Shown piece after piece: positions 1,170 through 31,009 of a DNA stretch of 38,112 nucleotides. Each line of letters starts with the position of its first letter. The first letter of the stretch is position 1. The notes under the pieces were generated by a model. That model made no database searches. It was not told the origin of the DNA and saw only the letters and a program-made list of their open reading frames with translations. The DNA lies in IMG/VR virus record IMGVR_UViG_3300023443_000373, positions 1 to 38,112 of that record, one strand, 5' to 3'. Made by a program: the position numbers and the translations under genes. Source of the stretch: a virus.

Positions 1170-2222
1170 ATGAAATGGTTCAAACATGACACATGCGCCA
1201 ACATGGACCCACGATTACAAAAAATATTATCCCAGTACGGTCTAGAAGGCTACGGGCTGTATTGGTATTGCGTCGAGTTAATCAACTCCCAAGTCTCTGA
1301 GAAAGATGTCAGTTTCACGCTTCAGCACGATGCTGAGGGCATTGCTAGAAACACAAACAATACCCCTCACAAAGTCGAGTCAATGATGCGCGAATTTCTC
1401 AATTTAGAACTCTTTGAATTAGATGAACACGGCAACATTTGCTGTCCAGAATATGCAATGAAGTTAGACACTTCAATGACTTCAAATCGTCAAATGAGAC
1501 TGATCATTCAAGAGATAAAAAGTAGATTTGTTGAAGAAAAGGAGATCGAAAAATCGATCGAAAAGGGATCGAAAGACGAAATCGATCGATCGAAAGATGA
1601 AATCGATCGACAAAATCGATCTCCCGAGCGATCGAAAAATTCTGAAAAAGACGAAATCGATCGCGAAATCGATCGCAAAAAAGACTTTTTCGATACAGAA
1701 ACCCAAATCGATCCCGAAATCGATCGCAAAAATGACTTTTTCGATCGCGAAATCGATCGCGAAATCGATCAGGAAATCGAAATTGATACGGAAAAACCAC
1801 CAATTCGATACGAAAGTCATGATTCTTGTATCGAAAAAGACGATTCTGTACAAAAAACGAACAATCGATCTAAAAGTCATGATAAAATCATGCAAGAAGG
1901 AGAAGGAGAGAGAGATAAAGACCTTAAACGATCTTGTACGATTTTGGATGAAATCGTCCCAAATCATGATTTTGAAACTTTTTGGAATCTCTATCAGAGA
2001 AAAGTCAATAAACCCGCATGTCAGAAAAAATGGGCAAAACTTAAACCTGGAGAGATTTACCTTATTTTTAAAACTGTCAAAGATTACGTTAAATCAACAC
2101 CTGTAAAAAAATATCGTATGAATCCTTTGACCTACTTAAACAATTACGGATGGAATAACGAAATTATCGATAATGAATCAACAGGTGGGAAACACGATTT
2201 TAGTTGGATGGATGACGAGTGA
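1170..2222 (+). CDS. Phage replication initiator with internal iteron-like array
   Basis: The 350-residue protein has three parts. Residues 1-115 (MKWFKHDTCANMDPRLQ, then GLEGYGLYWYCVELI) match the N-terminal DNA-binding domain found in phage replication organisers (DUF4373 / Lin1244-type). Residues about 120-255 are a highly charged, low-complexity linker dominated by EIDR units. Residues about 268-340 (FETFWNLYQRK, KKWAKL, MNPLTYLNNYGW) match the C-terminal segment common in phage initiators, likely the contact for a helicase loader. The linker DNA contains the array described at 1544-1772, so the gene may contain its own origin, as lambda O does. The next gene overlaps its stop, which fits an initiator-loader pair. 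Long open frames on both strands here are by-products of the palindromic repeats. Role inferred; domain match by eye. Confidence 0.8.
   Translation: MKWFKHDTCANMDPRLQKILSQYGLEGYGLYWYCVELINSQVSEKDVSFTLQHDAEGIARNTNNTPHKVESMMREFLNLELFELDEHGNICCPEYAMKLDTSMTSNRQMRLIIQEIKSRFVEEKEIEKSIEKGSKDEIDRSKDEIDRQNRSPERSKNSEKDEIDREIDRKKDFFDTETQIDPEIDRKNDFFDREIDREIDQEIEIDTEKPPIRYESHDSCIEKDDSVQKTNNRSKSHDKIMQEGEGERDKDLKRSCTILDEIVPNHDFETFWNLYQRKVNKPACQKKWAKLKPGEIYLIFKTVKDYVKSTPVKKYRMNPLTYLNNYGWNNEIIDNESTGGKHDFSWMDDE
1544..1772. repeat. Iteron-like ATCGAT/GATC array, candidate replication origin
   Basis: Within about 229 bases I count 15 GATC sites where about one is expected by chance. The core unit is a 12-mer close to GAAATCGATCGC, at 1578, 1599, 1653, 1665, 1716, 1749 and 1761, several copies abutting exactly at 12-base steps. 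A larger direct repeat includes the GACTTTTTCGAT blocks near 1683 and 1733. The word occurs in all three frames of the host gene (EIDR, KSIE, QNRS), so the DNA rather than the peptide seems conserved. Lambda-type phages place origin iterons in the linker part of the initiator gene. The GATC density also recalls Dam-regulated origins. Function is inferred. Confidence 0.7.
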
Positions 2223-29932: not shown

Positions 29933-31009
29933 TTAATTTGGCTTCAATGGGATCACTTTTGCCGTCTCGATCACTTCATAAGTACGGCGTATTTTTCTAC
30001 AAATACCCTCCCCCACTAACTCCAATAAAATCCTCGATAACTCTGGATGACGGCGCTTTGTTTCAGCCATTAAGACAGTAATTTTTAAAGTATTACCATA
30101 GAAACCAGACGCAATTTTTTGTTTAATTACACTCAATTCTTCACTGATATTGCAAGTTGCAATTGCTAGTGCAACTTCGGTATGTTTCACAGGTTTTGCA
30201 ACTTGCAACTTTTGTGCAACTTCTGCAACTTGCAGTGGTGCAACTTTTTCTTGCAAACTTGCAACCCGCGTATTCTCTGGCTTGCAAGGTGCAATAACTT
30301 TTTCTTGCAATGTTGCATTGTCAAGTTGCAAGGTCGGTGCAATAACTGCAATTTTATGTTTCACGGTTATTGCAAGGATGCAAATTACGCCGCAAATATC
30401 AACCAACATTGCACCGAAAAGAAATAGCAATAACTGTGCAAGTTGCGCAGTAATACCCAACATTTCGCCAACAGTTTTGAAGATAGAATCTTCTCTAGAT
30501 TCTTGCACACCCTTAAGGGTGTTTAACTTTTCAAGTGCTGCCGCTTTCTCTACTCGAAGCGCCTTCAAACGAGTACTGATTGAATAACCCCTAGTTTTAT
30601 ATTTACCTTTCAAATCGTTTGCTTGGGATTCAATAAGTGTGGCTGATTCACTATCTAGTTTGTGTATGATATTTTGCTGTTCATGATACACAAATGATGA
30701 AGTACTAATTATTTCTAAATTACTCGTTGCGCCTGATTCAAGAAAAACCACCGTAATGAACACCGAAAAAGCGAGCAAAACAACGGCTATCATATAAAGA
30801 AAAAACGACCATATTCTAGATACTGTCTTTTTTGCCAGCGCAAAGAATGCGAATTTACACACCTCAAGACCGGTGGCAAATACACCCGCCATGACCATTT
30901 TTTCTATATTAGGCTGTCTTGTCACCCAAAAGGCCACTGAAGCCACCAAAGAGAAAGAGCAAAGCAGAACGGCCCCAATCACAAGGCCGCTTTGTAATAT
31001 CTTAGTCAT
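29933..31009 (-). CDS. Membrane-anchored protein with coiled coil and winged-helix-like tail
   Basis: The 358-residue protein has likely membrane helices at about 6-29, 37-58, 66-90 and 184-215, with a long charged coiled coil between the third and fourth (100-180). A low-complexity linker (about 217-287, VA, LQ and AT units) leads to a C-terminal block (288-350) that reads like a winged helix: SVIKQKIASGFYGN, ITVLMAETKRRHPELSRILLELVGEGICRKI. An even number of spans puts both ends in the cytoplasm, so it could hold DNA at the membrane. The linker is encoded by the TGCAA-rich array. GAGGTGGG precedes the ATG. It is the last gene of the RecT operon. I recognise no named family. Confidence 0.7.
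   Translation of the reverse strand: MTKILQSGLVIGAVLLCSFSLVASVAFWVTRQPNIEKMVMAGVFATGLEVCKFAFFALAKKTVSRIWSFFLYMIAVVLLAFSVFITVVFLESGATSNLEIISTSSFVYHEQQNIIHKLDSESATLIESQANDLKGKYKTRGYSISTRLKALRVEKAAALEKLNTLKGVQESREDSIFKTVGEMLGITAQLAQLLLFLFGAMLVDICGVICILAITVKHKIAVIAPTLQLDNATLQEKVIAPCKPENTRVASLQEKVAPLQVAEVAQKLQVAKPVKHTEVALAIATCNISEELSVIKQKIASGFYGNTLKITVLMAETKRRHPELSRILLELVGEGICRKIRRTYEVIETAKVIPLKPN
30151..30441. repeat. TTGCAA/TGCAA array within the membrane-protein gene
   Basis: I count 19 copies of TGCAA on the plus strand in this stretch, where well under one is expected, plus many on the other strand as part of the palindrome TTGCAA. Several are spaced 7 or 8 bases apart (30151/30158, 30197/30204, 30252/30260, 30283/30290, 30371/30379), giving units such as TTGCAAGTTGCAA. 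The word falls in all three frames of the host gene (LQ, VA/IA, TCN), so peptide repetition does not explain it. It is the second DNA-word array in the window and differs from the ATCGAT array. A protein-binding array is likely; its ligand is unknown. Confidence 0.75.

Follow-up and report, generated by a model that had tools for sequence, protein, structure and literature searches.

Why does a phage gene for a predicted membrane protein carry a dense array of short words within its own coding DNA? The question arises at an ORF of 358 aa on the minus strand (29933..31009) of a stretch of viral DNA of 38,112 bp, the whole of which is referred to here as the window. A first-pass annotation, which named no strand for the ORF, had proposed that a membrane protein with a DNA-binding tail recognizes TGCAA words inside its own gene and in this way fixes the phage DNA at the inner membrane. 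Reading frame, translation and homologs of the same family support the ORF as a real gene, and the predicted product is membrane-anchored with a winged-helix tail.

To our knowledge, the holding of phage or plasmid DNA at the membrane is poorly known in Gammaproteobacteria. An anchor and a binding array in coding DNA, combined in a single protein gene, would represent a very small system to test. A synonymous recoding of the linker would separate the DNA role from the protein role.

Structure of the predicted membrane protein

The structure of the 358-aa protein was analyzed by hydropathy and by an AlphaFold model that was built from a 21-row alignment. Both bore out the four membrane helices and the coiled coil that had been claimed, and these parts were modelled with confidence. 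Membrane helix 1 (residues 9-27; 30929..30985, on the minus strand as are all features of this gene) had a hydropathy peak of 2.48 and corresponded to a modelled helix at 2-31. The respective values were 1.60 and 35-61 for helix 2 (residues 38-56; 30842..30898), 2.76 and 65-104 for helix 3 (residues 70-88; 30746..30802) and 2.68 and 188-237 for helix 4 (residues 193-211; 30377..30433). According to hydropathy, a coil of about 95 residues separates helix 3 from helix 4. It was modelled as a coiled-coil hairpin at residues 106-184 (30458..30694), composed of helices 106-134 and 138-184 with pLDDT block means of 81-95. Helix 4 is followed by a disordered linker (residues 238-287; 30149..30298), in which the pLDDT was below 50 at 239-257 and 259-287.

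From the N-terminus to just past helix 4, the mean loop charges of 21 family members were +0.67, -0.67, +1.24, -1.38 and +1.19. Because of this bias, both termini of the window protein are probably inside, and the coil probably faces outward from the membrane.

The tail (residues 285-346; 29972..30157), which had been guessed to be winged-helix-like, was composed of H285-300, a short strand, H310-317, H321-333, E337-340 and E343-346 in the full model, with pLDDT block means of 82-93 over residues 291-350. A model of the tail alone gave identical elements at lower confidence (mean pLDDT 71.8). By prediction the tail has the three helices, the helix-turn-helix and the two-strand wing of a winged helix, in agreement with the earlier guess. 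The arrangement of membrane part and linker is likewise a predicted one.

When the best 1,000 Foldseek chains were re-aligned with VIA-align, the tail matched IclR and GntR regulators as well as Z-alpha domains at Z ~7, a value which according to the tool's own note may mean merely a common arrangement. The FtsK gamma domain and SelB were among the structure matches listed. Since ribosomal proteins and ESCRT subunits were also present on the match lists, the winged-helix fold by itself is no proof of DNA binding. The family profile matched GntR/MocR-type regulators via the tail alone (model positions ~262-319), with best per-genome E values between 8.6e-6 and 1e-5; that the matched regulators are of GntR or MocR type was judged by reading their sequences. 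Furthermore, a tail profile found the regulatory protein PDB 6sbs (E 0.0034). Family tails scored below the cut-offs of the Pfam HTH models. PF00392 (GntR) was matched by two of seven tails, with a best E value of 0.13 and below the 27-bit cut-off. As modelled, the tail is likely to bind DNA.

For the complete window protein no Pfam or NCBIfam model matched above its cut-off, and replication-initiator families gave no match either. Phrog_26898 (E 0.01) was rejected as an identity, as the match spans the coil only. ABC transporters topped the Foldseek list of the whole model via their long helices (E 0.13 and worse) and were discarded; winged-helix matches were present on the same list.

The TGCAA array within the coding DNA

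Word counts revealed an array of 22 TGCAA/TTGCA cores at 30150..30442 (no strand assigned), ten of which form the word TTGCAA. The cores are located within 286 bp. Their spacing is irregular, and adjacent cores are often 7-8 bp apart. The array starts within the DNA coding for helix 4 and stops where the coding of the tail begins. It had been ascribed to the linker DNA, and in addition it spills into the DNA of helix 4.

The array was confirmed against two codon-level nulls. In the first, the stretch was recoded synonymously 5,000 times from the codon usage of the other window ORFs; the recodings averaged 5.0 word hits and never exceeded 15, whereas 33 were observed. In the second, which used other bounds and the local codon usage, 32 word hits stood against a mean of 4.9 and a maximum of 17 (5,000 recodings). 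Across the whole window TTGCAA occurred at chance level (24 versus 23.1 expected). It is the clustering and not the overall number of TTGCAA that carries the significance. Regarding clustered 6-mers, the gene was second only to the gene at 1170 among the 33 non-overlapping ORFs with 120 aa or more. Helical phasing of the array was not clear, the strongest periods being near 11 and 9.25 bp with a power of ~4, too low for us to regard them as evidence.

The best single explanation, to which we would give a probability slightly below one half, is a DNA tether anchored in the membrane, with a tail that binds the array of its own gene in a centromere-like manner; here we infer both the binding and the tethering purpose. 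The four membrane helices would anchor the protein in the inner membrane, with both ends in the cytoplasm and the coiled-coil hairpin outside. The flexible linker would carry the winged-helix tail as a DNA-binding domain in the cytoplasm, where it would bind the TGCAA words in the linker-coding DNA of its own gene. The gene would thereby bring its own binding sites along. Many sites in ~290 bp would gather many anchors and so fix the phage genome at the membrane, and this centromere-like tether would act during early replication or an extrachromosomal stage. We prefer the tether because it joins the membrane part, the tail and the array at DNA level, and because it fits the plasmid relatives described below. 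A membrane-bound regulator and a linker grown by repeats remain serious rivals.

The family and its linker arrays

The one direct relative found with the window protein, in the plasmid search, was a protein of a Microbulbifer phage-plasmid (24% identity, E 4e-9), whose gene spans the start of its record. As a query, the window protein found no direct relative in viral contigs, genome contigs or phage records. Queries from other branches of the family had no match in phages, plasmids or viral contigs. Family profiles were built starting from the phage-plasmid relative. The first one had matches in 13 of 390 genomes sampled from the order of a Microbulbifer genome. A broader profile had matches in 45 of the 390; many of these consisted of the tail alone, and the tail-only matches that were read were regulators. 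Among 369 genomes sampled across the class, the counts were 5 and 13, and within the genus Microbulbifer 13 of 48 genomes had a match.

Members of the family were found in prophages and plasmids of Gammaproteobacteria and in some of their chromosomes. Most of its proteins share the order of membrane helices, coil, membrane helix, linker and tail, and some distant members bear other tails. A description of this family was not found in the open-licence papers that were searched. In the window, a RecT-like annealing protein and a YqaJ exonuclease are encoded upstream of the membrane gene. The suggested tie to these recombination genes was not supported by the relatives: by reading, other genes were seen in the Microbulbifer prophage neighbourhoods, and RecT and YqaJ were not among them.

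A linker array was called when its 6-mer cluster was reached by 0 of 500 synonymous shuffles. Of 31 hand-picked members (the fragments L018 and L034 and the duplicate places L004, L010-L012 and L058 were excluded), seven had a significant array: the window, L002, L017, L028, L030, L031 and L033. All seven were also at 0/5,000 under the null of local codon usage. In the remaining 24 members the cluster was reached by 33 to 500 of the 500 shuffles. Among more divergent loci (100 shuffles each) none was above the maximum of its own shuffles. Further arrays were present in L134, L144, L147, L149 and L150 (0/200 shuffles each), which belong to a set of 19 additional loci. In this set, L139 had no usable ORF, L143 and L146 were one gene and L140 was taken as the L002 gene. 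It also holds repeats, as the linker and tail of L132 are as in L003, and L135 and L141 resemble L009 and L007.

An array in a homolog without the tail, named earlier as a refuting result, was not found. All seven array-bearing members carried a tail (0/7 tailless), and so did the array-bearing members of the additional loci. Conservation of tail and array together was not supported: 24 of the 31 members lacked a significant array, nearly all of them having a tail (shortened in L056), so that most tailed members are without an array.

The 11 Microbulbifer arrays were confined to two genomes, six in G017 and five in G787. Arrays may therefore have arisen independently only two or three times, once in the window and once or twice in Microbulbifer. 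G787 carries an apparent copy of the phage-plasmid and four more array-bearing copies on another contig. One of these four, L144, is 97.6% identical to the phage-plasmid over 1 kb.

The words of the arrays differed between the groups. The window uses TGCAA, one Microbulbifer group TAAACGG/CAACGG and another AACGTTCA. The palindrome GTTTAGCTAAAC, the KorA operator of IncP plasmids, lies at the start of the Microbulbifer array at L002:312-323 and is found at the same place in L017 and L028; here it is probably a chance junction of two array words. The word AACGTT follows a 21-bp lattice in the linkers of L031 (8/8 sites), L033 (12/12) and L149 (11/12). No comparable lattice was present in the window array. 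As 21 bp equal seven codons, and about two helical turns, a heptad of the protein would yield the identical lattice, and from the spacing alone protein heptad and DNA lattice are indistinguishable. Codon bias argues for a role at DNA level. In the array linkers, codon choice departs from local usage toward the array word; Arg was encoded by CGG in 10 of 12 cases in L017 (18% in local usage) and Ser by TCA in 12 of 20 cases in L033 (9%).

Short-linker Microbulbifer relatives were mixed as to an excess of the array words. In L009 and L016 none of 1,000 shuffles reached the count of these words after the last membrane helix, and in L007 and L006 the word count past this helix was reached by one and two of 1,000 shuffles, respectively. 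No such excess was seen in L008 (221/1,000) and L013 (802/1,000).

These data bear on an explanation in which slippage and local duplication lengthened a low-complexity linker and left the array as a by-product. The words would have no role at DNA level and the tail would have another target. Linker length and the presence of an array indeed differ sharply between close relatives, TTGCAAGAAAAAGTT is present twice in the window array as a sign of some local duplication, and the heptad mentioned above could account for the lattice. However, the words of the window linker use all three frames and encode LQ, VA, IA, CN and CK, and synonymous codons were biased to the word in each of the seven arrays tested. 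Furthermore, the commonest word of L149 is CGTTTA where L031 and L033 have CGTTCA, with Leu for Ser. This fits selection on the DNA, although homogenisation of repeats would give the same result. We regard a by-product as unlikely.

Plasmid-type relatives and the possible role of the array

In a distant branch of the family, a ParA-like ORF was located 0.2-1.5 kb from the membrane gene in all five loci counted (L112, L113, L114, L115 and L116). The count leaves out two further matches of this branch on G102:C91. L094, L108 and L115 were taken as one plasmid of 82,464 bases, and L095 overlaps with L114 as does L096 with L116. AAA_31/CbiA ATPases were confirmed by Pfam for L094 (= L115), L095 (= L114) and L096 (= L116); in L096 the ATPase is followed by a ribbon-helix-helix protein. 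The annotated plasmid pC of Spartinivicinus ruber, one of these loci, shows the order ATPase, small gene, membrane gene.

In three of the five loci (L113, L114 and L116) an array was present between parA and the membrane gene; no such array was found in this gap in L112 and L115. GTATTAC/GTAATAC palindromes occur in the gaps of L113 and L114. In L114 this family has nine copies, of which seven are located inside the gap, mostly 55-61 bp apart. The gap of L116 holds 11 AAGTAT words. Between the tails of the plasmid branch and of the window the similarity was marginal (probability 1.3, E 0.041).

ParA motifs were absent near L117, L109, L110 and L111 of the same distant branch. At L117:3585-3745, nine GTTACA words lie in 161 bp between two genes. 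The members L109:7974-9044 and L110:7974-9014 are carried by Vibrionaceae replicons of 2 Mb that are listed as plasmids (in Photobacterium and Vibrio campbellii), and their C-terminus reads like a winged helix.

Since relatives of the plasmid branch adjoin ParA genes with arrays, a role of the family in DNA segregation or anchoring becomes more likely. On the other side, the tether reading is weakened because arrays are narrowly distributed and many array-bearing copies occur in two genomes; six and five copies per genome fit poorly with a strict centromere. The 24 of 31 members without a significant array count against it as well, as does the window itself, in whose six frames no Walker ParA motif was detected. 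An integrase motif was not found in the window either.

A more far-reaching form of the tether, which we put forward as tentative, would be a centromere and an anchor in one gene. The tail of the family would read the array in its own linker codons, word and tail would change together between phages, and the plasmid relatives would keep the array beside the gene and add ParA. If so, the 21-bp lattice of Microbulbifer would suit the codons and the helical turns simultaneously.

Instead of a tether, the protein could be a transcription regulator bound to the membrane. In this case the outer coiled coil would sense the state of the envelope, the cytoplasmic winged helix would control phage genes, and the array would be a cluster of operators within the gene. 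Transcription regulators predominate among the nearest folds and the profile matches of the tail. Moreover, CadC/ToxR are described as having a winged helix, a disordered linker, a membrane part and an external domain in one protein (PMC5430869), as predicted here. However, the 58 bp that separate the gene from its upstream neighbour contain no TGCAA/TTGCA, TTGCAA is at chance level window-wide, and in our judgement 22 cores within an ORF are unusual for an operator. Many relatives lack the array in addition. We consider a regulator rather improbable.

The array could also be a replication origin or a set of iterons for another initiator that is embedded in the gene. In lambda, the iterons of the origin lie midway within gene O (PMC7466680). 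Here, however, the window has an initiator gene of its own (1170-2222, plus strand), whose product has Lin1244_N at its N-terminal end and matches replication initiators C-terminally. In the middle of this gene, 15 GATCGA words form an array in 227 bp (1544-1770), which supports the parallel between both genes that had been drawn earlier. The word GATCGA contains GATC. By analogy with the mid-gene sites of lambda O, this array is a candidate for an embedded origin. A relative, L040, has a GGTTAC array after a long putative primase gene as well as a linker array. A second array thus accompanies a replication gene in the window as well as in L040, which makes an origin in the linker array unlikely, and we judge this explanation very improbable.

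Strong 6-mer arrays, which were considered as possible missing targets of the tails, were also seen elsewhere in family loci (L040:4166-4413, L042:4257-4561, L039:8097-8401, L043:8247-8530, L044:8512-8810, L047:9588-9890, L048:11519-11806 and L049:10457-10744), with words that mostly differ from one another. Those of L040 and L042 begin just past the long putative primase gene, which was assigned by reading. These arrays are perhaps origins.

Some exclusion and defence proteins combine a membrane part with a coiled coil, and relatives gave weak matches to ZorA and LmuB; with ZorA far below the cut-off and no PADLOC match of the window protein at E 0.01, a prophage exclusion or defence factor with an incidental array is the least probable explanation and hardly to be expected.

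Compared with known systems, the preferred tether shares single features with several of them. ParA partition loci resemble the distant plasmid-type relatives, which adjoin ParA and have a gap array in three of five loci, and differ from the window by their ParA. In CadC/ToxR a single membrane helix follows the DNA-binding domain, whereas the window protein is predicted to have four helices and a C-terminal domain.

Protein p16.7 of phi29 is described as an organiser of phage DNA replication that binds displaced strands and the terminal protein (PMC4974454). By this description it is phage-encoded and membrane-integral and recruits phage DNA to the membrane, as the window protein would under the tether reading. 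An embedded array of sites, as in the window gene, is not mentioned in this description.

In corynephage CGP3, AlpA is described as a DNA-binding adaptor with 24 alpS repeats in the promoter region and acts through an actin-like filament. A phage DNA-binding adaptor, predicted in our case, and a dense repeat array are common to both. The differences are the position of the alpS array in the promoter region and the actin-like filament; moreover, this description does not present the adaptor as a membrane protein.

The embedding of sites can be compared with lambda O, whose binding sites are located mid-gene and in which extra iterons add residues to the protein (PMC7466680). There, as presumably here, the sites are embedded in the gene of the protein that binds them. 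However, lambda O is a replication initiator, whereas a membrane anchor is predicted for the window protein, and the initiator of this phage is encoded by another gene, which carries an array of its own.
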